Shown piece after piece: positions 4,504 to 34,504 of a DNA stretch of 36,091 nt. A model generated the notes under the pieces. That model did not search any database and was not told the origin of the DNA. It was given only the letters and a program-made list of their open reading frames with translations. Each line of letters opens with the position of its first letter. Positions within the stretch are counted from its first letter, which is position 1. A program made the translations under genes and the position numbers. This stretch comes from Hylemonella gracilis (GTDB lineage: Bacteria; Pseudomonadota; Gammaproteobacteria; Burkholderiales; Burkholderiaceae_C), in contig CAMAWQ010000007.1 in NCBI GenBank assembly GCA_945862005.1, positions 1 through 36,091 of the forward strand. Direction: 5' to 3'.

Positions 4504-7383
4504 ATGACCTCCGAAGCCCCCGACTACCGCGCCACCCTCAATTTACCGGACACCCCGTTTCCCATGCGCGGCGACCTGCCCAAACGCGAGCCCGCATGGG
4601 TCAAGACTTGGGAAGAGCAAGGCACTTATAAAAAGCTGCGCGACGCTCGCCGCGGTGCGCCCAAGTTTGTGCTGCACGACGGCCCGCCCTACGCCAATGG
4701 CCAAATTCATATTGGCCACGCTGTGAACAAAATTCTTAAGGACATGATTGTCAAATCGCGCCAGTTACAGGGCATGGACGCGCAATTTGTGCCCGGCTGG
4801 GACTGCCACGGCTTGCCCATTGAAAACGCCATTGAAAAACTCCATGGCCGCAACCTGCCCAGAGACGAGGTACAAGCCAAAAGCCGCGCGTTTGCCACCG
4901 AGCAAATTGCTGGCCAAATGGCCGACTTCAAACGTCTGGGCGTGTTGGGTGCGTGGGACGAGCCCTACCGCACCATGGACTTTGCCAACGAGGCCAACGA
5001 AATTCGTGCGCTTAAACGCATCATGGAGCGTGGTTTTGTGTACCGTGGGCTCAAGCCCGTTTACTGGTGTTTTGACTGCGCCAGTTCTTTGGCCGAATTT
5101 GAAATTGAGTACGCCGACAAAAAAAGTACCACGCTGGATGTGGCGTTTGAATGCGCTGAGCCCGACAAATTGGCGGCTGCCTTTGGTCTGCCCGCACTAG
5201 ACGGTCCTGCTTACGCCGTGATTTGGACCACAACCGCTTGGACCATTCCCGCAAACCAAGCCCTCAACCTCAACCCCGAGATTGAATACGCGCTGGTTCA
5301 AACCGAGCGGGGGTTGTTGCTGATGGCAGCGGTGTTGGTGGAGTCTTGCATGGCGCGCTACCAGTTGAGCGGCGACCAGAATGGCCGAGTGTCAGCTACC
5401 ACACTGGGCAAAAACTTGGCCCTTATCAACTTCAAGCACCCGCTTTACGATGTGGCAGACGCCAGTGGGCACTATGGATACCGCCGCTTCAGCCCCGTGT
5501 ACTTAGCCGATTACGCCACGGCGCAAGACGGCACCGGCTTGGTGCATTCGTCGCCCGCTTATGGGGTGGACGACTTCAACAGCTGCAAAGCCCACGGCCT
5601 CAACTACCAAGACATTCTCAACCCCGTAGGTTCCAACGGTGCTTACGCAGCAGACTTTCCGCTGTTTGGCGGGCAACACATCTGGAAAGCTGTACCGGCT
5701 GTGATTGAAGCCTTGCGCCAAGCGGGGCGCCTGTTGGCCACACAAGATATTCAGCACAGCTACCCGCACTGCTGGCGGCACAAATCACCCGTGATTTACC
5801 GCGCAGCTGCCCAATGGTTCATCCGCATGGATGAAGCTGACCAAGCGGGCACTGAAGGCGTGTTTACCCAAGACAAAGCGCCCCAAACCCTGCGCCAATT
5901 GGCCCTAGCGGCGATTGAAGAAACCCGGTTTTACCCAGAGAACGGCAAAGCCCGCCTGCGCGACATGATTGCCAACCGGCCGGACTGGTGCATCAGCCGA
6001 CAGCGCAGCTGGGGCGTGCCCTTGCCCTTTTTTATTCACAAAGATTCTGGCGAACTCCATCCCCGCACCATGGAGCTCATAGACCAAGCGGCCAACATGG
6101 TGGAGCATGGCGGCATTGAGGCCTGGAGCAAAGTGACCGCCGAGCACATGCTGGGTGCGCAAGACGCCCAACATTACAACAAGGTCAACGACATTTTGGA
6201 TGTGTGGTTCGATTCCGGCACCACCCATTACCACGTGCTGCAACAAAGCCACGCCGATGCCTCTGCTTGGCCTGCCGACTTGTATTTAGAAGGACATGAC
6301 CAGCACCGCGGTTGGTTTCACAGCTCTTTGCTCACTGCCTGCGCCATGTACGACCACGCCCCCTACAAAGGGCTGCTCACTCACGGCTTCACCGTGGACG
6401 GCAAAGGCCGAAAAATGAGTAAGAGCGTGGGCAATGTGGTGGCTCCGCAAGAAATCAGTAACAAATTGGGCGCTGAAATCATTCGCCTGTGGTGCGCCTC
6501 TACCGATTACTCGGGTGACCTGGGTGTGGACGACAAAATTTTGGCGCGCGTGGTGGATGCCTACCGCCGCATTCGCAACACCTTGCGCTTTTTATTGGCC
6601 AATGTGAGCGACTTCAACCCCGCCACCGACGCTGTACCTTTAGACCAACTGCTCGAGGTAGACCGCTACGCTATCAGCCGCGCCGCCGAAATTCAAGCCG
6701 ACATCTTGCGTCACTATGAGGTTTATGAATTTCACCCTGTGGTCTCCAAGCTGCAGGTGTACTGCTCTGAAGACTTGGGCGCTTTTTATTTAGATCTCCT
6801 CAAAGACAGGCTCTACACCACCGCACCCAAGTCATTTGCAAGGCGCAGCGCCCAAACGGCCTTGTGGCACATCACCCACGCCAAGCTGCGTTGGATGGCT
6901 CCGTTTTTAAGCTTTACCGCCGAAGAGGCATGGGAAGTTTTTGGCACATCCGACTCCATTTTTTTAGAAACCTACGCCCAGTTGCCTGAGCCCGATACCC
7001 AGTTGCTCACCAAGTGGTCCCGCATTCGCAACATTCGAGACGCAGTCAACAAAGACATTGAAACCCTACGCGCTGCCGGTCAGGTAGGCGCGTCTTTGCA
7101 AGCCCAAGTGCAACTTACGGTTAACGCGGCTGACTATGCCTTGCTCAGCAGTTTGGGCGCTGACTTGAAATATGTATTCATCACTTCTGGGGCCACTCTG
7201 AGCCTTGGGGAAGCGCTGAGCGTTCACACTGAGGTTTCACAAGACCCCAAGTGCGATCGCTGCTGGCATTACGCGTCAGATGTGGGCCAACAAGCGGACC
7301 ACCCCAGTTTGTGTGGCCGCTGCTTCAGCAGTTTGTTTGACAAGCCCACCACTTCAAGCGCTCCAGAGCGGCGGTTTGCCTGA
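4504..7383 (+). CDS. ileS: Isoleucine--tRNA ligase
   Basis: [23 protein letters not shown] (HIGH) and [12 protein letters not shown] (KMSKS); C-terminal CxxC zinc motif [12 protein letters not shown]...LCGRC. Start [12 protein letters not shown] chosen inside the longer ORF. Confidence 0.97.
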
Positions 7384-7384
7384 T

Positions 7385-7885
7385 ATGGCTAAAAACTTTT
7401 CTCGAGCTCCCTTTCAACCCAGTCTTGGATTGTGGCTGGGCTTAGCTGTTGTGGTGTTGTTGGCTGATCAGTTCACCAAGATTTTGATCTTGGGGCATTA
7501 CCAGTTGGGCGACAGCACGATGGTGACATCGTTTTTTAACGTGGTGCGGGTTCACAATGCCGGTGCGGCCTTTTCGTTTTTGTCAGACGCTTCGGGCTGG
7601 CAGCGCTGGTTGTTTATCGGTATTGGTGCAGTGGCCATGGTGTTGATCGTGTGGATGCTGCGATCTAACCCAACTCAGCGTTTGTTCTCGGCCGCACTGA
7701 CCCTGATTTTGGGCGGCGCGATGGGCAACGTTTTAGACCGACTTCTCTACGGCTACGTGGTGGACTTTATTGACGTGCACTGGGCGGGCTGGCACTTTCC
7801 AGCATTCAATGTGGCCGACAGCGCCATTTCGTTGGGCGCTGCGGCACTGATTCTGGACGAACTCCTGCGAGTTCGACGTTCTTAA
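7385..7885 (+). CDS. lspA: Lipoprotein signal peptidase II
   Basis: [54 protein letters not shown] motifs; follows ileS. Confidence 0.96.
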
Positions 7886-8874
7886 AGCGTCAAAATCGTG
7901 CAGCCCGTGGTGTTGCGGGCTTCTAAATCGATGTGCGCCTGTTGAATCTGTTCCAGCGGATAGGTTTGGTCGATATTGATTTTCACTTTGCCGCTCACCA
8001 CCACGTCAAACAAATCATTGGCCATAGCCTGAGTGCTTTCGCGCGTGGCAATATGAGTGAACAGGGTTTGGCGCGTCACGTAAAGTGAACCTTTACCGGC
8101 CAGTGAGCCTGGCGCAAAAGGTGGCACGGGGCCTGACGCATTGCCAAAACTGGCCATCAATCCAAAGGGGCGCAAGCAATCCAACGACTTGTCCCAAGTG
8201 TCTTTACCCACCGAGTCGTACACCACCTTGACGCCCTTGCCACCGGTGATCTCTTTAACTCGCGCCGCAAAATCTTCTTTGCTGTAGTTGATGGCAAAGG
8301 CCGCGCCATTGGCTTTGGCCAATTCGCACTTGGCGTCTGAACCTGCAGTACCAATCAATTGAAGGCCCAAGGATTTGGCCCACTGGCACACAATTTGGCC
8401 TACACCGCCTGCCGCCGCATGAAACAACACATGGTCACCTGGCTCTAAGCCCTCTACAGGGCGCACTTTTTTAAGCAAGTACTGGGCGGTTAAACCCTTT
8501 AGCATCATGGCCGCGCCGGTTTCAAACGAAATCGCGTCTGGCAATTTGCACACACATTTGGCAGGCATGACCCGCACTTCGCAATAGCTTCCAGGGGGCT
8601 GGCTAGCATAGGCCGCACGGTCGCCCACCTTCAAGTGGGTCACGCCCTCGCCCACGGCTTCCACTACGCCAGAGGCCTCCATGCCCAAATTCAAAGGCAT
8701 GGGCAGTTGGTACAAACCAGAACGCTGGTACACATCAATAAAGTTCAAACCCACCGCTTTGTGGCGGATGCGAATCTCCCCAGGGCCTGGATCCCCCACT
8801 GTCACCATGGCAATTTTGAGCTGCTCAGGCCCACCGTGTTGTGCAATTTGAACGGCGCGTGAAGTTAAGGTCAT
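7882..8874 (-). CDS. NADPH:quinone oxidoreductase (zinc-type alcohol dehydrogenase-like, MDR superfamily)
   Basis: [21 protein letters not shown]..., [35 protein letters not shown]-like. Confidence 0.92.
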
Positions 8875-8958
8875 GAGAGGTCTCCTAATATGTTTTGGGT
8901 TGATATGGCTCAAATTCTATAAGGGCGGCCAACTGCAAGATCTGGGGGCTTAAACGCC

Positions 8959-9741
8959 ATGCCCAAACCGCTCATCCTTGACCCTAAAGCCTCGTGCCGC
9001 CAGAACGCGCAACGCTTGCTGGGAGAAAACTTGCAACAATTTTTTGAATGTCTCCAAGCCATACCTAACTCTGATGACCCCGAACTGATCCACCAAGCGC
9101 GCATGGCTTGGCGGCGCTCCCGCGTTCTTTGGCGCTTGTTCCAGCCAGTAGACACTTTAGGCTCACCTTGGGGCGAGCTTAGTCCTCTGCTTAAGCCACT
9201 GGGGCTTGTGCGTGACCTTGACGTTGCCCGACTCGAAACCCGGCCCCAGCGCCTAAAAGCCGCCCCCTTATCCCCCGCTTACTTGTGGGCTCAGCAGGCT
9301 CTGCAACGGCTTTCAGACTCAGCTCGTCTTCAGTTGATTGACCAAATCGCCACACTCCAGCCGCCCAAGTTGCACCACCTGACCCATTGGCTGGCAGCAC
9401 TTCAAATCCAACCCCAACACCCGAAGTCTTGGGCTAGGGCCCGTGCAAGGAAATGGGTAGAGGCCTTGACGCGCAGCTACGAGGAAGCGCAAATACAAAC
9501 CTTTAGCGCCAAAAGGTGGCACTTGGTGCGCCTTAGAGCCAAGCGACTGCGCTACGGTATTGAGGCCCTTGGCCCTCTGCTGCCCCGCAAATGGGCCAAG
9601 CTATGGCACCACAGAGCACGCCAACTCCAAATCCGTTTGGGTCTTGAAAGAGACGCGCTGCGACTCACCGAATTGTTACAGTGCACGTCATGTCCACCCA
9701 AGCGTACGCACGACTCACCCCCGCCACCATCCTGCTCCTAA
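8959..9741 (+). CDS. CHAD domain-containing protein
   Basis: ORF 260 aa with IHQARMAWRRSRVLWRLF, LVRDLDVARLE and HLVRLRAKRLRYGIEAL, matching conserved His/Arg/Lys patterns of CHAD domains. Confidence 0.8.
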   Translation: MPKPLILDPKASCRQNAQRLLGENLQQFFECLQAIPNSDDPELIHQARMAWRRSRVLWRLFQPVDTLGSPWGELSPLLKPLGLVRDLDVARLETRPQRLKAAPLSPAYLWAQQALQRLSDSARLQLIDQIATLQPPKLHHLTHWLAALQIQPQHPKSWARARARKWVEALTRSYEEAQIQTFSAKRWHLVRLRAKRLRYGIEALGPLLPRKWAKLWHHRARQLQIRLGLERDALRLTELLQCTSCPPKRTHDSPPPPSCS

Positions 9742-10607
9742 CCATCCCGCCCCTCATGTGGGCCGGCAATGTGGTGGTAGGCCGGATGTTGAGCCCGCAT
9801 GTTTCGCCGGTCACGCTGAATTTCATCCGCTGGAGCTTGGCTTTTTTAATTTTGCTGCCGCTGGCTTGGCGCGTCGTGCTGCCGGGCAGTGGCTTGTGGG
9901 CCAGCTGGAAGCGCTTCACCTTGCTGGGTTTGCTGGTCGGTTGCTACAACGCGCTGCAGTACATGGCGCTGGAAACCTCCTCACCGCTCAACATCACCCT
10001 AGTGGCGTCCAGCAGCCCGATTTGGATGATGGCCATAGGCCGCTTGTTTTTTGCAGCGCCCATCAGCCGCAGGCAAGGCCTTGGGGCGGTGTTGTCCATG
10101 CTGGGCGTTGCCTTGGTTTTAAGCCGCGGCGAATTGGACGCCTTGCTGAATTTGCGATTGGTGGTGGGCGATGTGTACATTTTGGTGGCCACCCTGTCTT
10201 GGGCGTATTACAGCTGGATGCTGACCCAAAAAAATCAAGAACCGGCCCATATTCGCAACAATTGGTCGGCATTTTTACTGTCTCAAATTGTGTTTGGCAT
10301 GGGTTGGGCAGGCGTGTTTGCGGCCGGCGAATGGGCGACAGACCGCGCCTTTGTAAATTGGAGCTGGCCAGCAGCTGCCGGCATGTTGTTTGTAGCGCTC
10401 GGACCTGCACTGCTGGCCTACCGTTGCTGGGGTGCCGGCGTGCAAAGGGCGGGACCCGCGGTAGCCTCCTTTTTTTCCAACCTCACCCCCCTGTTTGCGG
10501 CCTTAGGGTCTTTGGCTTTATTGGGCGAATTGCCCCAATACTTTCATGTGCTGGCTTTTGCGTTCATTGTGGGGGGGATCGTGGTATCTTCAAAACGTTT
10601 TCAATGA
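9690..10607 (+). CDS. DMT family (EamA) transporter
   Basis: Highly hydrophobic ORF with repeated EamA units (PLMWAGNVVVGRML..., ALGPALLAYRCWGAGVQRAGPAVASFFSNLTPLFAALGSLALLGE). Confidence 0.9.
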   Translation: MSTQAYARLTPATILLLTIPPLMWAGNVVVGRMLSPHVSPVTLNFIRWSLAFLILLPLAWRVVLPGSGLWASWKRFTLLGLLVGCYNALQYMALETSSPLNITLVASSSPIWMMAIGRLFFAAPISRRQGLGAVLSMLGVALVLSRGELDALLNLRLVVGDVYILVATLSWAYYSWMLTQKNQEPAHIRNNWSAFLLSQIVFGMGWAGVFAAGEWATDRAFVNWSWPAAAGMLFVALGPALLAYRCWGAGVQRAGPAVASFFSNLTPLFAALGSLALLGELPQYFHVLAFAFIVGGIVVSSKRFQ

Positions 10608-10621
10608 TCGAGTCTTCTCCC

Positions 10622-11128
10622 ATGAACCACCCACCTCAAGCCCAAGTTACGGATGGACAAACTGCCCGCTCAGGCCGCTTGGCTTGGGTATGTGGCTTAC
10701 TGGCTTTGGTCTTGAGCGCCTGCGGAGCCACCACACCGCTCAACGAGAGCAGCGCCAATACTTCCCCCATTTCCAGGGAAATGAACGACCTGATCAACAA
10801 CAACCAGTTGCCTGCGGGGGCCAAAATCAACCATGGACAGTCGCTCATCATGGGCGCAGGCGACAACTGGGTGGGCCGAGTGGTGATGGAGCTGAGCCAA
10901 AGCCCTAACGCCACCTACAACTTTTTTCTAGACCAATACCCCGCGCAAGGCTGGACTTTGGTGACGGCAGTGCGAGGCAAAACCAGTTTGCTGGTGTTCA
11001 CCAAGGCCGACCGAACAGCCTCGGTGGAAATGGTGGAGGGCGCTTTTGGTGCCACCCAAACCACTTTAACAGTGACCCCCAAAACCACGCTGCCCACCCC
11101 GGCATCGGCCAGCCCCGCTCGGCGTTAG
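10622..11128 (+). CDS. Hypothetical lipoprotein
   Basis: MNHPPQAQ...LLALVLSACGATTP lipobox (LSAC). An alternative in-frame ATG at 10604 overlaps the DMT stop (ATGA). Confidence 0.75.
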   Translation: MNHPPQAQVTDGQTARSGRLAWVCGLLALVLSACGATTPLNESSANTSPISREMNDLINNNQLPAGAKINHGQSLIMGAGDNWVGRVVMELSQSPNATYNFFLDQYPAQGWTLVTAVRGKTSLLVFTKADRTASVEMVEGAFGATQTTLTVTPKTTLPTPASASPARR

Positions 11129-11164
11129 AACCTAAGTTAAGGTCTTAGTTAGGACGTTAAAGCC

Positions 11165-11953
11165 TTAGTAGGTTCCGGGGTACGCACCCCCGTCTGCCAA
11201 TACGTTTTGCCCATTGATGTAAGCGGCCTGTTGGCTGCACAAAAAGGCGCAAATGGCGCCAAATTCTTGCGGGTTGCCAAAGCGTTGCGTCGGAATTTGC
11301 TTGCGGCGCGCATCCATCACGGCCTCCAGCGGTTGACCGGTTTTTTTAACGGCATTGGCAAAGTTGCCACGCAAACGGTCGGTATCAAAAGCGCCTGGTA
11401 AGAGGTTGTTGATGGTCACCCCATGAGCGGCCAACTTAGGGTTGCGCGCCACACCTGCCACAAAACCGGTTAAACCGCTGCGCGCACCGTTGGACAAGCC
11501 CAAAATGTCTATGGGCGCCTTCACCGCGCTGGAGGTGATGTTGATGATGCGTCCAAACCCACGGGCCGCCATGCCGTCTACCGTGGCCTTGATGAGTTCA
11601 ATAGGGGTGATCATGTTGGCGTCCACAGCCTTGATCCAAGCCTCGCGGTCCCAGTCGCGGAAGTCTCCGGGGGGTGGGCCTCCTGCGTTGGTGACCACAA
11701 TGTCAAATTCTTGGCGCTGTGCAAACACGGCCTGCCGCCCATCGGGGGTGGTGATGTCAGCCGCCACGGCCAAAACCTCTCCTGCACCTTGCAGTGCCTT
11801 GAGTTCGGCTACAGCGGCGTTCAGGGCTTCAGCACCCCGGGCCACGATGAGCACATGCGCCCCTTCTTGGGCCAAGGCCTGAGCGCAGCCCAAACCCAAA
11901 CCTTTGCTGGCCCCACACACCAACGCCCATTTACCTCTAATTCCTAAGTCCAT
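11165..11953 (-). CDS. SDR family oxidoreductase (3-oxoacyl-ACP reductase-like)
   Basis: GASKGLGLGCAQALAQEGA, VTNAGGPPPGD, ITSSAVKAPIDILGLSNGARSGL, NGQNVLADGGAYPGTY. Confidence 0.9.
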   Translation of the reverse strand: MDLGIRGKWALVCGASKGLGLGCAQALAQEGAHVLIVARGAEALNAAVAELKALQGAGEVLAVAADITTPDGRQAVFAQRQEFDIVVTNAGGPPPGDFRDWDREAWIKAVDANMITPIELIKATVDGMAARGFGRIINITSSAVKAPIDILGLSNGARSGLTGFVAGVARNPKLAAHGVTINNLLPGAFDTDRLRGNFANAVKKTGQPLEAVMDARRKQIPTQRFGNPQEFGAICAFLCSQQAAYINGQNVLADGGAYPGTY

Positions 11954-11987
11954 ATTGCAAGTCCTACTTCAAATAAAAAAAAACGCC

Positions 11988-13607
11988 TTAATAACCTGCA
12001 GCCAGACCATCGCGTCGCGCGTCGCTAGCCGCCACATAGCCTTCTACCTTAGGGTCGCCCGCACGCCAAATAAACTGACCCGCACCAAAGTCTTGATAAG
12101 AATCGTTGATGACTTCCATTTTGTGGCCACGCTCGGCCAAACCTTGTACCGTGGCGATTGACATACCGGCTTCCACATTGATTTCTAACCCTGCGTTGTA
12201 ACGCCACCTTGGGGCGTCGCAAGCAGTTTGCGGATCTTGCTTGTAATCCAGCATGCGCACCAGCGTTTGCATGTGCCCCTGGGGTTGCATGTTGGCGCCC
12301 ATCACCCCAAAGCTCATCACAGGTTGGCCGTTTTGAGTCAAAAAGGCGGGGATGATGGTGTGGAAAGGCCGCTTGCCTGGCGCTACCAAGTTGGCCGGGT
12401 TGTGGGCATTGGCTAGCAAGTTGAACGCATGGCCTCGGTTTTGCAGACTCACGCCAAATTCCGGCTCCACACAACCTGAGCCAAAGCCCATGTAATTGCT
12501 CTGAATAAAGCTGACCATCATGCCGTTTTCATCGGCCGTGGTGAGGTAAATGGTGCCGCCCTTGACCGGGTTGCCCGCCCCAAAGTCCTGCGCCTTGTTC
12601 ATTTGAATCAGCTTGGCGCGCGAGGCCAAATAGGCGTCATCCAGCATCTGCTTGGCACTCACTTGCATGCTGCCGGGTTCGGCCACATAGCGGTAGACAT
12701 CGGCAAAGGCCAGCTTCATCGCTTCAATTTGCAGGTGCTGAGAGTCCACACCATCCACCGGCAAACCCGCCACATCCAGCTGGTTCAAGATGCCCAAGGC
12801 AATCAAGGCGGCAATGCCCTGACCATTGGGTGGAATTTCGTGCAGGGTGTAACCACGGTAGTTTTTGCCAATGGGCTCTACCCACTCAGGCTTGTAGGCG
12901 GCTAAATCGCTGGCCTTAAGGCAGCCGCCGTATTCATTCGAAAAACGCTCCAGAGCCTGGGCGATTTCGCCGCCATAAAAGGCCTGCCCTTTGGAAGCTG
13001 CAATGGCACGCAAACCCTTGGCTGCAGCCGCAAACTTAAACAACTCGCCCACACGGGGTGCCCTGCCCCAAGGCAAAAAGGCCTGCGCAAACCCCGGCAT
13101 GCTCTGCAGCTCGGCGGTGGCGGCTTCCCATTTTTGTTGCACCACCACGGGCATCAGGTAACCGCGCTCTGCAATTTCAATGGCCGGGGCCATCAAATCG
13201 GCAAAAGGCAACTTGCCAAAGCGCTCGCTCATGGCCACCCAACTGGCCACCGCACCAGGCACGGTCACAGCGTCCATGCCGCGCTTTGGCGGGTGCGCTT
13301 GCGCACCGTATTTAGATTCAAAGTACTGGGGTGTCCAGCCTTGGGGCGCACGCCCTGAGGCATTCAAGCCATGCAAGGCCTTGCCGTCCCACAAAATCGC
13401 AAACGCATCGCTGCCTAGGCCATTGCTAACGGGCTCACAAATGGTCATAGCTGCAGCCGCTGCAACCGCCGCATCCACCGCGTTACCCCCGCTTTGCAAA
13501 ATGCGCAAACCCGCCTGGGCCGCCAAGGGGTGAGAGGTAGACACCACGTTGCGCGCAAATACGGGCAAGCGGGTGCTGGCATAGGGATTGGAAAAATTGA
13601 ACTGCAT
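11988..13607 (-). CDS. Gamma-glutamyltransferase family protein (no evident signal peptide)
   Basis: ASTSHPLAAQAGLRILQSGGNAVDAAVAAAAAMTICEPVSNGLGSDAFAI...KGGTIYLTTADENGMMVSFIQSNYMGFGSG. Confidence 0.9.
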   Translation of the reverse strand: MQFNFSNPYASTRLPVFARNVVSTSHPLAAQAGLRILQSGGNAVDAAVAAAAAMTICEPVSNGLGSDAFAILWDGKALHGLNASGRAPQGWTPQYFESKYGAQAHPPKRGMDAVTVPGAVASWVAMSERFGKLPFADLMAPAIEIAERGYLMPVVVQQKWEAATAELQSMPGFAQAFLPWGRAPRVGELFKFAAAAKGLRAIAASKGQAFYGGEIAQALERFSNEYGGCLKASDLAAYKPEWVEPIGKNYRGYTLHEIPPNGQGIAALIALGILNQLDVAGLPVDGVDSQHLQIEAMKLAFADVYRYVAEPGSMQVSAKQMLDDAYLASRAKLIQMNKAQDFGAGNPVKGGTIYLTTADENGMMVSFIQSNYMGFGSGCVEPEFGVSLQNRGHAFNLLANAHNPANLVAPGKRPFHTIIPAFLTQNGQPVMSFGVMGANMQPQGHMQTLVRMLDYKQDPQTACDAPRWRYNAGLEINVEAGMSIATVQGLAERGHKMEVINDSYQDFGAGQFIWRAGDPKVEGYVAASDARRDGLAAGY

Positions 13608-27835: not shown

Positions 27836-27925
<90 letters not shown>

Positions 27926-27962
27926 AATGGGTATGTGCCATAATCCACCCCTTTATCTCTTT

Positions 27963-28047
27963 GCCCGGGTGATGAAATTGGTAGACGTAGGGGACTCAAA
28001 ATCCCCCGCCGCAAGGCGTGTCGGTTCGAGTCCGACCCCGGGCACCA
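27963..28047 (+). tRNA. tRNA-Leu (anticodon CAA)
   Basis: GCCCGGGTGATGAAATTGGTAGACG...GGGGA-CTCAAAA-TCCCC...GGTTCGAGTCC...CCCGGGCACCA; type II tRNA with encoded CCA. Confidence 0.97.
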
Positions 28048-28138: not shown

Positions 28139-28636
28139 ATGAAGCCACATTTTCGTATCCGCGCGCTGGTTGCAGTTTTAGCACTTTCGGCGCTTTCAGC
28201 CTGCAACACCACCCCCATCAACACTTCTGAGCCCATCACGCCGCAAGCTAGAGTGAGCTTTATTGACATTTCAAAGTTCGACCGTGAATTGGCCAGCTCT
28301 GTAGATTCGCCTCTGGAGTCTGTGGATGTGGTGTTTTATGACCGCGTGGGGCCCAACAACATGCCGGAACGCTTGCAAAAATGGTTGGCCGCCGTGGAAA
28401 AGAACGGCGGCGTGGTGCGTGTGGTGCCACCCCCTAATGAAATTGCGCCGCGTGACCCTTTGGCCCTACTTGGCTTGGTAGGCAGCTTGTTTAGCGTGAT
28501 CAAGAACCTGGCGGCGATCAACACAGACCGCGTGTTTGAAACGGTTAAAGGCCGTGACGCGGCCATTGCACTGGAACGAAACGCTGCTGGCGAGTTGGTG
28601 GTGGGTAAGCTGCAATTTACTAAACGCAAGCCATGA
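28139..28636 (+). CDS. Orphan lipoprotein, first gene of caspase/CHAT operon
   Basis: MKPHFRIRALVAVLALSALSACNTTP, lipobox LSAC; SD-like AAGGGA upstream; stop overlaps next start (ATGA). Confidence 0.85.
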   Translation: MKPHFRIRALVAVLALSALSACNTTPINTSEPITPQARVSFIDISKFDRELASSVDSPLESVDVVFYDRVGPNNMPERLQKWLAAVEKNGGVVRVVPPPNEIAPRDPLALLGLVGSLFSVIKNLAAINTDRVFETVKGRDAAIALERNAAGELVVGKLQFTKRKP

Positions 28637-30339
28637 CCAACGGCTTCTCCCGCTTTGTGCGAGCGGTAACAGCGTCTTGCTTTTCAACGGCTTTGCTTGC
28701 TGCCACGTTTTGCGCCATGCAGCCCGCACTGGCCCAAGACACATCTAATCGCACGGCCCTAATCATTGGCATTGGTGAATACGGCTATTCCGGCGTGACG
28801 TCTTTGACCGGGGTGCCTTATGACATGACCAGCGCCCAGCGTATTGCTTTGGCCATGGGCATTCCTGAAAAAAATATCAAAACCCTCATCAACGCCCAAG
28901 CCACCAAAGAAAATATTCTGAAAACTCTTCAAGAGTTGGGACGCAACACCCAGCCCGGCGCTCGGGCGTTTGTGTATTTTTCTGGGCATGGCACACGCTA
29001 TCCAGACCCTACTTCGGGCGGGTGCATTGAAGGGCTTTTGACCTACGAGGGTCAAACCATCACCAACAAAGAGCTGGCCAGTGCCAGCCAACAGCTGCAC
29101 CAAAACGCTGACAAGCTCATCACCTTAATGGATGCCTGCCACTCTGGCGGCGTTGCTAACGCCTTCAACACCCGCTCCGCCAACGCCAACCTTTTTAAAC
29201 CTAAGTTTTTTTTAAAGGCGGATGCATCTGCCAGTATGTGCAGCCAGCCCACCAACATGCGCACCCGTGCCTTCATTAACGAAGCTACACGGCTAGGCGC
29301 CTTGCAAGAAAACGTGGTTCAAATCACCTCGTCACGGCCCGACGAGGTCAGCTTTGACGAACCCGGCAAAGGTGGGCTTGCCACCCAAGGCCTGCGCGAT
29401 TGCTTGCTGGGCCAAGCCCAAGACACCGACGGATCCGGCGCAGTGAATTTGGCCGAAATTCAGAAGTGCGCGCAAAACTTTGTAGACAACAAACTTAAAA
29501 ATGTGCCGGGCTTGTCTCCCCACCACATCACCGTCAAGGGCAACCGAAATCTGATTCCGGTGATAGCACCTGTACCTGTATCAGCACCTGCGCCCGCAAT
29601 TGCTGCTCCACCTACACCCTTAATTGCCGCTGTGCCCGAAAGCACTTCTGTTCTGGCGGCTATTCAGCCTAACGCCTCATCCACCGAACCCTCTGCTGCT
29701 CAAACCACATCTCCACCGGCAGTTCAACCTGCCGCAACAAGGCCCGAGCCCGCCCCAGTGAAACCAGCTCCACAAGCTCCGGCCGAAGTTCAAATGGCTC
29801 CAGCTCCTGTCAAGCCTGCGCCGGTTGTGGTTCCGCCCGCCTTGGCCTCTTTGGCTACTCTCAAAGACATTGAACAGCAGCGCAACCCCAAGCGCAAAGT
29901 AGAGGTCAAACTCAGTAAACCGGCGCTCAAAATTGGCAAAGATTTGCTGGACCTGAGCATTCAGTCCAGTCATGCGGGCTATGTGTATTTGGTGCTTTTG
30001 GGCAGCGACAGCAAAAGTTTTTATGTGCTCTACCCCAATGGCCTAGACCAAAACAACAAAATATTGGCAGGCCAAACCTTGCGCATTCCCAAACCGGAAT
30101 GGCAAATTAAATCTGTTGGTCCTGCGGGTACCAACCACATGCTGGTGATGGTGTCAGACAGCCCACGCAAGCTTGACAGCTTGGTTATGGCAGAGCCCTC
30201 GGCGTCAGCGCCTTTTACCTATGCCTTAAACAATTTTGAAGGGCGCTCCGCGCTCATCCGTTTTTTAACCAGCTCAGGCGCCAACGGCTCTTCTGAGAGC
30301 TTTGGTGCCAAAATTCTTTCAGTCAAGGAGGTTCTATGA
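28633..30339 (+). CDS. Exported caspase family (peptidase C14) protein with DUF4384-like C-terminal domain
   Basis: Signal peptide ending PALAQ; TALIIGIGEYGYSG...VYFSGHGTRYPD (His at 28987-28989) and LITLMDACHSGG (Cys at 29137-29139). Pro/Ala-rich linker, then PALKIGKDLLDLSIQSSHAGYVYLVLLGSDSKSFYVLYPNGLDQNNKILAGQTLRIP. Confidence 0.92.
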   Translation: MTNGFSRFVRAVTASCFSTALLAATFCAMQPALAQDTSNRTALIIGIGEYGYSGVTSLTGVPYDMTSAQRIALAMGIPEKNIKTLINAQATKENILKTLQELGRNTQPGARAFVYFSGHGTRYPDPTSGGCIEGLLTYEGQTITNKELASASQQLHQNADKLITLMDACHSGGVANAFNTRSANANLFKPKFFLKADASASMCSQPTNMRTRAFINEATRLGALQENVVQITSSRPDEVSFDEPGKGGLATQGLRDCLLGQAQDTDGSGAVNLAEIQKCAQNFVDNKLKNVPGLSPHHITVKGNRNLIPVIAPVPVSAPAPAIAAPPTPLIAAVPESTSVLAAIQPNASSTEPSAAQTTSPPAVQPAATRPEPAPVKPAPQAPAEVQMAPAPVKPAPVVVPPALASLATLKDIEQQRNPKRKVEVKLSKPALKIGKDLLDLSIQSSHAGYVYLVLLGSDSKSFYVLYPNGLDQNNKILAGQTLRIPKPEWQIKSVGPAGTNHMLVMVSDSPRKLDSLVMAEPSASAPFTYALNNFEGRSALIRFLTSSGANGSSESFGAKILSVKEVL

Positions 30340-30992
30340 AACGTTCATATCTTCTAGGTTGTGTACTCGGCGGTCTGTACTTGGCCAGCAGCTGCCAAGT
30401 TGGCGCACAACCCCTGCAAAACGCCACGGTAGACCAGCTGGTCGAACAGCTGGCCCCCAGCACCCCCATGCGCACCCGCGGCATGCGCAATTTGGCGCCA
30501 CAAAGGGCCCCAGGTGCTACTGCCGGCACGGACGCAGTGGCAGTCAATGCTCCCGACGCCACAACTGGCACCTCTACCAACATGGCGGCTGGTACATCAA
30601 CTTCTTTGGCCTCATCTTCAGCGGCTGCCGATACCCCAACAGCCCCAGAGGCACCGCGCAGTGTGGACTTGGTCATCAACTTCAACTTTGATTCAGCCAG
30701 CCTTCAGCCTGCCAGCAAGCCGCTGCTGGATGTGTTGGCCATTGCCTTGAGCAGCGACAAACTCAAAACCATTCGATTTAAGGTGGAGGGCCATACCGAC
30801 GCCAAAGGCCAACAGGCCTATAACCAACAGCTCAGCAGCCGCAGAGCGGAATCGGTGGTGAGCTACTTGACAGAAAAAGGCGTGCCCAAAGACCGCATGC
30901 TGCCCGAAGGCAAAGGCTTTTCCGAGTTGCTGTACCCCGAAAAACCCACTGCCATGGAAAACCGCAGAGTTCGCATTACCGCGTTGCAATAA
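30336..30992 (+). CDS. OmpA family protein (peptidoglycan-binding C-terminal domain)
   Basis: Signal peptide; Ala/Thr/Ser-rich linker; INFNFDSASLQPASKPLLDVLA...VEGHTDAKGQQAYNQQLSSRRAESVVSYLTEKGVPKDRMLPEGKGFS. Confidence 0.92.
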   Translation: MKRSYLLGCVLGGLYLASSCQVGAQPLQNATVDQLVEQLAPSTPMRTRGMRNLAPQRAPGATAGTDAVAVNAPDATTGTSTNMAAGTSTSLASSSAAADTPTAPEAPRSVDLVINFNFDSASLQPASKPLLDVLAIALSSDKLKTIRFKVEGHTDAKGQQAYNQQLSSRRAESVVSYLTEKGVPKDRMLPEGKGFSELLYPEKPTAMENRRVRITALQ

Positions 30993-31009: not shown

Positions 31010-31477
31010 ATGGCCAAGTCCAAGCACTTAGTTGTATCTTGTGCCCTAACAGCTTGCGTGGCGCTACTGAGCCCTCTGGCCCACTCTGCGCCGCCGCAGC
31101 TGGTGAGCACTGAAGAAATGCAAGCCTCTAATGCGGCGCCACCCCCGTTTGTGGCACGCTCAGTACCCGACCGTAATGCGCCCCAAATTGAGCTGCTCAA
31201 CCCCAAACTGCCCAGCACCGTGAGCTCGCCCACCCCCATTGAGGTGAAATTTCAACCCGCTGCATCCAGCCAAGTCAAACCTGAGACCTTTAAGGTGTTG
31301 TATGGCAGCTTTCAAATAGACATCACCCGCCGCATCTTGAACGTGGCCAAAGTGACCGATTCGGGTATTCAGGTGCAAGAAGCATCTTTACCCAAAGGCA
31401 AACACAAGCTGCTGATGCAAATTGAAGACAACGCCGGGCGGATCGGTAGCCGCCAAGTGGAGTTTGAGGTCAACTGA
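31010..31477 (+). CDS. Small exported protein, possible Ig-like fold
   Basis: MAKSKHLVVSCALTACVALLSPLAHSA signal peptide; beta-rich-looking sequence SPTPIEVKFQPAASSQVKPETFKVLYGSFQIDITRRIL...LPKGKHKLLMQIEDNAGRIGSRQVEFEV. Confidence 0.75.
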   Translation: MAKSKHLVVSCALTACVALLSPLAHSAPPQLVSTEEMQASNAAPPPFVARSVPDRNAPQIELLNPKLPSTVSSPTPIEVKFQPAASSQVKPETFKVLYGSFQIDITRRILNVAKVTDSGIQVQEASLPKGKHKLLMQIEDNAGRIGSRQVEFEVN

Positions 31478-31504
31478 GCCTTGAACACTCCCAGCGCCAC
31501 CCAG

Positions 31505-34504
31505 ATGACACACATGTCGAGGTCTTGGAGGTGGCTTGTCTTGGTGTTGAGTGTTGGGGGGCTCGTCTGTTTACTGCACCCCTCCCTAAGTTTGGCGCAA
31601 TCGGACGCACCCGAAACCCTGCAACTACCCTCGGAAGAGCTGGCTAGGCTGCGTGAAGTTCTGAACCGCCCCATAGATCCCAACAGCCTGAACCAAACCA
31701 AAGAAGAGCTCTACAAACTCAAAGATAACGCAGCCTGGCGTTTAGGCGACATGGTCAAACGCGAAGAGGTGCTGCGCGAATGGGCACAGATCAGCAACGA
31801 CGGCAAATGGACGCTTCGCGACTATTTGGCAGGCACCGAAAAGCGCGCAGAGGCCTACGCTATTGGCAAGGAGCTGATAGAGGTGATGAAATTTCCACCC
31901 TCTGCCGCCCGAATTCGTGTCACGCTGGCGTCCAACAACATTGACGACAGCAACCTAAAAGAAGCGGGCAGGCTGCTGGACCAAGCTGAAAAAATTATCA
32001 AGGAGGAGTGGCGCAATGTGCCACCTAGAGGGGCCAACACTTTTCACATGGCTAGGGCCGAGATGGAGTTTCACAACATCAAGGCCCTGTATTTATGGCG
32101 AATGTCTCGCTGGGCCGAATCGGTGCAGAGCTCAGAACTCTCCATCCGTAAGGGCAAAGAGATGATCAAAAACGACGCTCAAGCAGATGAGCGTCAAAAG
32201 CAATTTTCAAAAAACTACTTGATTTTTTGCCACAACATTTTGGCCTTAACCCAAATGACATCGGGTCAATATGCCAATGCAGAGTGGAGCCTTAGGGAGG
32301 CTTACAAGCTGGCTAAAGAATTTAAGTTCAGCGATAACCAACTGATCGGTGTGTTCAATCGATATGCAGACTTAAGAAACGCTTTGGGTCTTACCGATGA
32401 AGCCAAGGCTTACGCAGAAAAAAGCTTGGCCTTACTCACAGCCCAGGGGTACAAACCAGGCTCATTCAACTGGGTATTTGCCAGCAACAAAATTTCGCTA
32501 GCTCTTACTATTGCGGGCAAATGGAAAGAGGCCTTAAACCAGTTTGAACTGGTAGATCAAGAAGTTTCCAAACTCAAAACACAATCGTCTCAGTCTCGCC
32601 TGTCCTTTGTGCGGGGTTTGGTTTACATGAACAATGACAAAGCCACCGATGCCCTTAAATATTTGGAGCCCACCTTCAAATGGCATGTTCAAAATTTTGG
32701 CGAGAACCATTACCAAACTGCCGTTGCCGGTGGTCTTTTGGCCTCGGCTTTGAGCCTTTCTGGGCAGCCTACTTTAGCTAGGCCGCAGTTTGAGCAAGCC
32801 ATGCGCAACATCACTGCGCCTGAAGTGCTCACAGGAGACTTTGCCGAGACCGCATTTCAAAAAGCGGCCAAGCGCTTTGTATTTCAAACCTACTTGCAGC
32901 TTTTGTCTAAAACCGCATCTCAAAACCCCAAAGATGCAGAAACTATTTTTGGGCTGGCAGATTTCCTGAATGCCTCGTCGGTTCAGCAGGCTCTGAGCGA
33001 TGCCGCGGTGCGCTCAGGTATTGATGTGCCCGTTTTGTCGGACATCATCCGCAAAGAGCAAGACGCCAAAGGAGAAATGACCAGCTTGCTGTCTTACCTG
33101 TCCAGCCAAAGCGGCGAAGGCGACGTCCGCCGCATCACACCGCAGGTGGTCGAGCAAATGCGCGTGAGGCTGCGCGAACTCGAAGCTGAGCGCCGCAAGT
33201 ACAAAGAAGACATTGCCCAGCGGTTTCCAGACTACTTTCAGCTCATTCAGCCCCGCTCGCCTAAACCTTCAGACATTGCCAAGCTGCTCAAACCCGACGA
33301 AGTGTTTGTGTCAGTGCTGCCCATGGACGCCGAAACGTTTGTATGGGGCATCAATGCGCAGGGAGATATTCATTTCCACCGGTGGGCCTTGAGCGAAAAG
33401 GCCATGAATGCGCTGGTAGAGCGAGTGCGCCAAACTTTGGACGTGGCCGGTTACGGCACCCAAGCACCCGCATTTGATGCAGCGGGCTCGCACCAGATTT
33501 ATCAGGGCTTGTTGGGGCCGCTAGAGCGCATGCTTGCTGGCAAACACCATATGGTGCTTGCCACTTCCGGCCCCTTGGCAAAACTGCCCCTTGCGGTGCT
33601 GGTGCGCACAACTGGTAAGGCCAAAGCGGCTGCCCCGCATTACTTGATTCAAGACATGGCGGTCAGCCACGTGCCTACAGCCAGCGGCTGGATGGCCCTT
33701 AAACGGTTTGGCAAGGTGGGCACCACTGGTCGACCCTTGGTGGCTTGGGGAGACCCTGTGTTTGAAGCCAAGCAATTGGCCATCAACACCAGCGGTAGCG
33801 CACAAGTGCGCTCGGCACTTGCGATTAGGTCAGTTTTGGAACCCCGCACACTCCCCCAAGGCGGCCTAGAAACGGGGGTGATGAATTTTGTGGACTATGC
33901 CCAATTGGCCCCACTGCCCGAAACGCGAGACGAAGTATTGGAATTGGCGCAAATTTTGGGCAGCCTGCCCGATCAGGATCTGTTTTTAGGGCCCAAAGCC
34001 ACCCGCAAATCGGTGCTGCAACACAGCAGCTCAGGCCAGTTGGCTCAAAAACAGGTGGTGGTGTTTGCCACCCACGGCCTATTGGCCGGAGACCTGCCCA
34101 ACCTAAACCAACCCGCCTTGGCCATGGCGGTGACTTCCAACCCGGCAGAGTCACCCCTGCTCACGCTGGATGACGTGCTGAGCTTGAAGCTGAACGCAGA
34201 CTGGGTGGTCCTGTCGGCCTGCAACACCGCCGGTGCTGACGGAAAAGCCCAAGAGGCACTCAGTGGTTTGGCGCGCGGCTTTTTTTACGCAGGCAGCCGC
34301 AGCTTGCTGGTGACGCACTGGTCTGTGGAGTCTGAAAGCGCCATGCTGCTCACCACTCGCACCTTTGAAGCCTACAAAACCCATCCCGACATGCGCCGCG
34401 CCGAAGCCCTACGCCAAGCCATGCTCCAAACCATGAAAGACAAACGATTTGCCCACCCGGCCTTTTGGGCACCTTATGCGTTGGTGGGAGAGGGTGGTCG
34501 GTAA
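31505..34504 (+). CDS. Exported TPR-CHAT domain protein
   Basis: Probable start MTHMSRSWRWLVLVLSVGGLVCLLHPSLSLAQ (signal peptide; ORF track uses TTG at 31481). Helical TPR-like repeats, then CHAT domain with VVVFATHGLLAGDL (His 34073-34075) and WVVLSACNTAGADG (Cys 34220-34222). Confidence 0.92.
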   Translation: MTHMSRSWRWLVLVLSVGGLVCLLHPSLSLAQSDAPETLQLPSEELARLREVLNRPIDPNSLNQTKEELYKLKDNAAWRLGDMVKREEVLREWAQISNDGKWTLRDYLAGTEKRAEAYAIGKELIEVMKFPPSAARIRVTLASNNIDDSNLKEAGRLLDQAEKIIKEEWRNVPPRGANTFHMARAEMEFHNIKALYLWRMSRWAESVQSSELSIRKGKEMIKNDAQADERQKQFSKNYLIFCHNILALTQMTSGQYANAEWSLREAYKLAKEFKFSDNQLIGVFNRYADLRNALGLTDEAKAYAEKSLALLTAQGYKPGSFNWVFASNKISLALTIAGKWKEALNQFELVDQEVSKLKTQSSQSRLSFVRGLVYMNNDKATDALKYLEPTFKWHVQNFGENHYQTAVAGGLLASALSLSGQPTLARPQFEQAMRNITAPEVLTGDFAETAFQKAAKRFVFQTYLQLLSKTASQNPKDAETIFGLADFLNASSVQQALSDAAVRSGIDVPVLSDIIRKEQDAKGEMTSLLSYLSSQSGEGDVRRITPQVVEQMRVRLRELEAERRKYKEDIAQRFPDYFQLIQPRSPKPSDIAKLLKPDEVFVSVLPMDAETFVWGINAQGDIHFHRWALSEKAMNALVERVRQTLDVAGYGTQAPAFDAAGSHQIYQGLLGPLERMLAGKHHMVLATSGPLAKLPLAVLVRTTGKAKAAAPHYLIQDMAVSHVPTASGWMALKRFGKVGTTGRPLVAWGDPVFEAKQLAINTSGSAQVRSALAIRSVLEPRTLPQGGLETGVMNFVDYAQLAPLPETRDEVLELAQILGSLPDQDLFLGPKATRKSVLQHSSSGQLAQKQVVVFATHGLLAGDLPNLNQPALAMAVTSNPAESPLLTLDDVLSLKLNADWVVLSACNTAGADGKAQEALSGLARGFFYAGSRSLLVTHWSVESESAMLLTTRTFEAYKTHPDMRRAEALRQAMLQTMKDKRFAHPAFWAPYALVGEGGR

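Follow-up and report, generated by a model that had tools for sequence, protein, structure and literature searches.

The window analysed here, the whole stretch of 36,091 nucleotides from Hylemonella gracilis, contains five tightly packed plus-strand genes situated between two tRNA genes (27836–28047) and a convergent epimerase-type gene (34548):

28139–28636, + strand: small lipoprotein with an LSALSA/C lipobox, belonging to no Pfam family
28633–30339, + strand: exported caspase-DUF4384 protein (Pfam Peptidase_C14, 1.1e-17; DUF4384, 1.3e-13; signal ALA/Q)
30336–30992, + strand: exported OmpA-like protein, a probable peptidoglycan binder (Pfam OmpA, 1.4e-21; GHTD...LSSRRAESV)
31010–31477, + strand: small exported Ig-like protein (weak Big_13 match)
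31481–34504, + strand: TPR-CHAT protein, with candidate starts at TTG 31481, ATG 31505 and ATG 31514 and no internal stop

The lipoprotein and caspase genes overlap by 4 bases, as do the caspase and OmpA genes, and the OmpA/Ig-like and Ig-like/TPR-CHAT gaps measure 17 and 3 bases, respectively. Inspection and a simple signal score point to export signals on all five products. In a sister-species assembly (G685), trpS and the genes for the lipoprotein, caspase, OmpA-like and Ig-like proteins keep their order on one contig, the four products sharing 92, 88, 86 and 85% identity with those of the operon, and the TPR-CHAT gene (90% protein identity) opens another contig. The dN/dS values of all five operon genes against the sister species fall between 0.07 and 0.15, which indicates that the operon is under purifying selection. 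The caspase, OmpA-like and small exported proteins, pointed out in the initial annotation as encoded together with TPR-CHAT, are thereby confirmed as a conserved operon with signals on all of its products. The caspase is composed of a Peptidase_C14 domain with the dyad motifs FSGHG/DACHSG, a Pro/Ala-rich linker and a C-terminal DUF4384; motifs of this type occur in 12 of the 12 caspases compared. It is the sole caspase found in the source genome, the assembly of which is 72% complete. Unlike TPR-CHAT, the mature exported caspase retains four extra Cys residues, possibly engaged in disulfides.

The last gene of the operon encodes a protein with the following predicted features:

31514–31597, + strand: signal peptide MSRSWRWLVLVLSVGGLVCLLHPSLSLA, with the predicted cut before Gln at 31598–31600
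31601–33210, + strand: alpha-helical TPR superhelix and following helices (Pfam TPR_12, 2.7e-13; all-helical in the low-confidence full-length model)
33491–34492, + strand: CHAT domain, caspase-like, clan CD (Pfam PF12770, residues 663–996; Foldseek)
34073–34075, + strand: His857 in FATHG (residues 854–858), catalytic by prediction, invariant in 22/22 homologues
34220–34222, + strand: Cys906 in LSACNTAG (from residue 903), catalytic by prediction, invariant in 22/22 homologues

TPR-like repeats followed by a C-terminal CHAT domain with FATHG, LSACNTAG and an intact dyad, as originally proposed, are recovered by Pfam as TPR_12 and CHAT, the latter with 160.2 bits against a cut-off of 24 (E 9.9e-47), and the alignment of full-length homologues keeps both dyad residues throughout. 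Signal/membrane scoring detected no later membrane segment in the TPR-CHAT of this stretch. The AF2 model of residues 515–999, built from seven sequences with proteins from the wider genome-search loci left out of the inputs, is of moderate confidence (pLDDT 69.6, pTM 0.71) and gives the CHAT region a caspase-like fold. Its Foldseek matches comprise Csx29/TPR-CHAT (4e-13), DdvA (2e-9), separase (8e-9), gingipain R (7e-5) and SAVED-CHAT, at TM-scores of about 0.5 and with high rmsd. Structure modelling had been suggested earlier as a check on the CHAT domain; judged by the pTM and by the Csx29, separase and gingipain matches, the fold is the right one. The poor full-length AF2 model (pLDDT 56) served for the layout only, a long helical superhelix before CHAT, and its top structural matches are again separase and Csx29. 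PDB sequence searches with the single TPR-CHAT or the close-family CHAT profile gave no match. DdvA was recovered at the sequence level with a broader CHAT profile (1.7e-6), its ATHG and LAAC motifs in alignment; the same profile puts the family Cys column on C627 of the S. brodae TPR-CHAT, the mutation of which abolishes protease activity (PMC9729208). In our estimate, TPR-CHAT is probably a real protease.

The export of this protein was addressed with a rough home-made n-h-c score. All 22 sequences (TPR-CHAT and 21 homologues) passed it, in comparison with 48 of 141 background ORFs once those with later membrane segments were excluded (P about 3e-8). Since around half of all background ORFs also pass, the score is weak alone and supportive only. 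A strict [AV]xA signal rule missed the TPR-CHAT of this stretch (S-L-A), and the looser score was used instead. Stronger support for export comes from a signal that was replaced and yet retained, and from the near-absence of non-catalytic Cys. In L033, the nearest relative, the mature protein shares 90% identity beyond residue 30 and its gene again follows the 3' end of the Ig-like gene, whereas the leader is completely different (31481–31600 here, 1–170 in L033) and again ends in A-V-Y-A/Q. A signal-peptidase-type site followed by Gln closes the h-region in nearly all homologues. The signals of the lipoprotein, caspase and OmpA-like protein stay alike between the sister species, unlike the replaced TPR-CHAT signal.

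Only 38 Cys are present in the 21,294 mature residues of the 22 homologues, and 22 of them are the catalytic Cys, which is the only conserved one; other Cys columns are common to at most three sequences, and non-catalytic Cys constitute 0.075% of residues. Six other genes in the window encode 0.7–2.2% Cys. Distant signal-bearing CHATs contain 0.28% and CHATs without a visible signal 1.4%, although the latter set is small and heterogeneous and may include mis-called frames. In our reading, free thiols were selected against beyond the cytosol and the nucleophile was retained; a thiol protease in oxidising surroundings would be expected to have the catalytic Cys as its sole conserved one. The Sec-type signal of the initial annotation is thus borne out at the sequence level by the replaced L033 signal, the Cys depletion and the signal score, and TPR-CHAT is very probably exported to the periplasm. 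The earlier preference for ATG 31505 or 31514 over TTG did not fare as well, as neither ATG is preceded by a visible Shine-Dalgarno sequence. TTG 31481 lies 3 nt past the stop codon of the Ig-like gene with TGAGGT upstream. In L033, a TTG preceded by AGGAG, at the corresponding position relative to the Ig-like gene, is evidently where the leader starts; the rejection of TTG 31481 is thus unsupported, and this codon appears at least as likely to be the start as either ATG.

Exported TPR-CHAT proteins are ordinary in their distribution. CHAT was found in 105 of 398 sampled Pseudomonadota genomes and, in the 20 loci examined, most of 18 distant CHAT ORFs bear a visible signal peptide. By these predicted signals, signal-bearing TPR-CHATs predominate among the sampled Pseudomonadota, and export here is not special. 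Within the genus the distribution is patchy, with a homologue of any kind in 14 of 26 genomes; a scan of the genome contigs returned one relative. A second, paralogous signal-bearing TPR-CHAT is encoded in the same genome in L034 (G000:C56, 2657–6377), adjoined by an Ig-like gene of its own and by a further conserved gene. The same arrangement is present in G015 (L047), and in both L034 and L047 the Ig-like protein is a distant homologue of that of the operon. Another signal-bearing TPR-CHAT (L054, 1–2763) comes from a contig that IMG/VR classes as viral and that may be bacterial DNA. Our literature search found no paper treating an exported TPR-CHAT.

The company of these genes was counted within 12 kb of 23 CHAT loci from 19 genomes with a homologue, some on short contigs. 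CHASE2 occurs at 9 of the 23 loci (0.31 expected) and a caspase at 6 (0.44 expected), with P values that are optimistic as the homologues are related. No CHASE2 was found in the source genome at the 72% completeness of its assembly. As 17 of the 23 loci, some of them on short contigs, have no caspase within 12 kb, the caspase is not the general substrate. The caspase label requires at least six changes on the CHAT tree, which means that the link was gained or lost on several occasions and is not one inherited block. An OmpA gene lies immediately upstream of TPR-CHAT in L039, L041, L109 and L115, overlapping its start in the last two, and a small lipoprotein gene recurs next to TPR-CHAT in other genomes. 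FecR and CHASE2-GGDEF-EAL genes come after TPR-CHAT in L053, and in L051 it is found amid sigma-70, tubulin-like and caspase genes. The L051 cluster (4950–12395) combines a sigma-70-family factor, a possible anti-sigma gene, two caspases and a TPR-CHAT with a lipoprotein-like signal, and is a candidate for sigma-linked envelope proteolysis. In L039 (3–10665) and L041 (5038–16581), three caspases come after the order lipoprotein-OmpA-TPR-CHAT-CHASE2; their N-termini resemble signals, and both the DACHSG and the DACRDN type are represented among them. An MlaD-like gene and a small membrane-type gene lie immediately next to TPR-CHAT or close to it in two genomes (L035, 4204–5731; L036, 5023–6428).

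The signal on TPR-CHAT, together with the adjoining exported caspase and cell-wall-binding protein, suggests a protein-cutting switch in the cell envelope. There is, in our estimate, an even chance that TPR-CHAT is a Sec-exported cysteine endopeptidase of the separase/Csx29-like kind, serving an envelope signalling module as its regulated periplasmic protease. The sequence shows the architecture, the intact dyad, the conservation and the operon; the elements that we infer are proteolysis, gating by the TPR, limited cleavage of a neighbour and a CHASE2-type input in relatives. If TPR-CHAT works like Csx29 and separase, its superhelix would hold a partner and keep the dyad mis-set; a signal would then change the complex, and the protease would cleave, to a limited extent, an envelope protein located with it. 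Operon neighbours would be the likeliest partners; their role as substrates or activators we infer only from repeated co-location. The caspase might be cut at the Pro-rich linker before DUF4384 in a two-step relay from CHAT to caspase, or in the reverse direction, with the OmpA-like protein holding it near peptidoglycan and the lipoprotein at a membrane; in relatives, the input would probably be the CHASE2 sensor. Such a CHAT-caspase cascade is a tentative extension that we consider unlikely, and the same doubt applies to a two-protease clan CD cascade located wholly outside the cytosol, OmpA-tethered to peptidoglycan and CHASE2-coupled in relatives.

TPR-CHAT could instead be an exported sensor or scaffold, an envelope receptor resembling DdvA, in which binding of a ligand or partner by CHAT triggers a conformational change and proteolysis is not needed. 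DdvA, an anti-sigma factor that spans the membrane, matches closely in structure and shows, against the protease reading, that a membrane TPR-CHAT can act as a sensor or anti-sigma factor. The relative L051 adjoins a sigma-70-family gene, and CHASE2 sensors stand beside many CHAT loci. Nevertheless, the invariance of His and Cys in 22 of 22 sequences while other Cys were purged argues for catalysis, and by Pfam TPR-CHAT has neither an anti-sigma nor a membrane domain, nor is there a sigma gene among the five operon genes, so that we regard the sensor as a minority possibility, with perhaps one chance in a handful. A location other than the free periplasm is less probable still. An uncleaved signal could anchor TPR-CHAT on the periplasmic side of the inner membrane, or, with a mis-called N-terminus, the protein could be cytosolic, as all three start candidates are in play. 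The signal-peptidase-type site and Gln of nearly all homologues, the Cys depletion and the signals on all operon partners speak against both versions, of which the anchor is possible and the cytosolic protein very unlikely.

A role in envelope defence or self-killing, with TPR-CHAT and the caspase triggered by phage adsorption or envelope damage to cut envelope proteins, ranks only slightly above mislocation and appears distinctly improbable. Clan CD proteases do act as bacterial defence effectors (Craspase, PMC9729208; PMC10028731), the operon caspase matches a PADLOC caspase model, and the patchy occurrence of homologues within the genus is in line with such a function. However, TPR-CHAT matches no PADLOC model specifically and has only a marginal match (BovA, E 0.0013), the operon includes no gasdermin, STAND, CRISPR or EAD partner, and the genes next to TPR-CHAT in relatives encode signalling and envelope functions, not defence.

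Work on bacterial CHAT and caspase proteases has dealt nearly exclusively with effectors of defence or development in the cytosol. A large exported branch that retains the catalytic Cys but has lost nearly all others, and that is repeatedly linked to exported caspases, OmpA and sensors of the extracytoplasmic space, would carry CHAT/caspase chemistry into envelope signalling. If true, the two-protease cascade, which is not described in the literature searched, would represent the equivalent of caspase cascades in the envelope, and its relatives would be widespread in Pseudomonadota.

Among known systems, Csx29/TPR-CHAT of the type III-E CRISPR Craspase shares the N-terminal TPR, the C-terminal CHAT and the dyad columns, and is the best Foldseek match of the CHAT region. 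However, Csx29 is cytosolic, bound to Cas7-11, and cleaves Csx30 upon RNA binding, whereas the protein described here bears a signal peptide and is about 12% identical to it. Identity with Craspase is ruled out, as no Cas7-11 (gRAMP) or other cas gene occurs among the Pfam matches of the five operon genes. DdvA of Myxococcus xanthus (PDB 8ROT) is likewise a membrane-linked TPR/CHAT-type protein with ATHG and LAAC in the profile match, and its CHAT domain lies in the periplasm, but it possesses a membrane segment where the present protein has a cleavable-type signal. An h-region that begins around 10 residues from the ATG start and the lack of an anti-sigma domain and of an operon sigma gene rule out a DdvA-type anti-sigma factor. 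Separase likewise places a caspase-like domain after a superhelix of helical repeats and matches strongly in Foldseek, although it is eukaryotic and intracellular and has cohesin as its substrate. HetF of Anabaena, the founding CHAT protein and a putative protease (PMC8406250), also combines CHAT, TPR and a membrane link. Its CHAT is N-terminal, with an internal membrane segment, and a HetF-type protein is ruled out here by the C-terminal CHAT at 663–996 after a signal peptide and by the absence of a later TM. Bacterial metacaspases were surveyed in 2012 (PMC3501461), in a paper the main text of which does not mention CHAT; of 217 metacaspase operons, 14 contained OmpA, and many of the enzymes had an N-terminal helix, maybe a signal. 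Exported metacaspases resemble the present system in the OmpA of some operons and in their possible signals.
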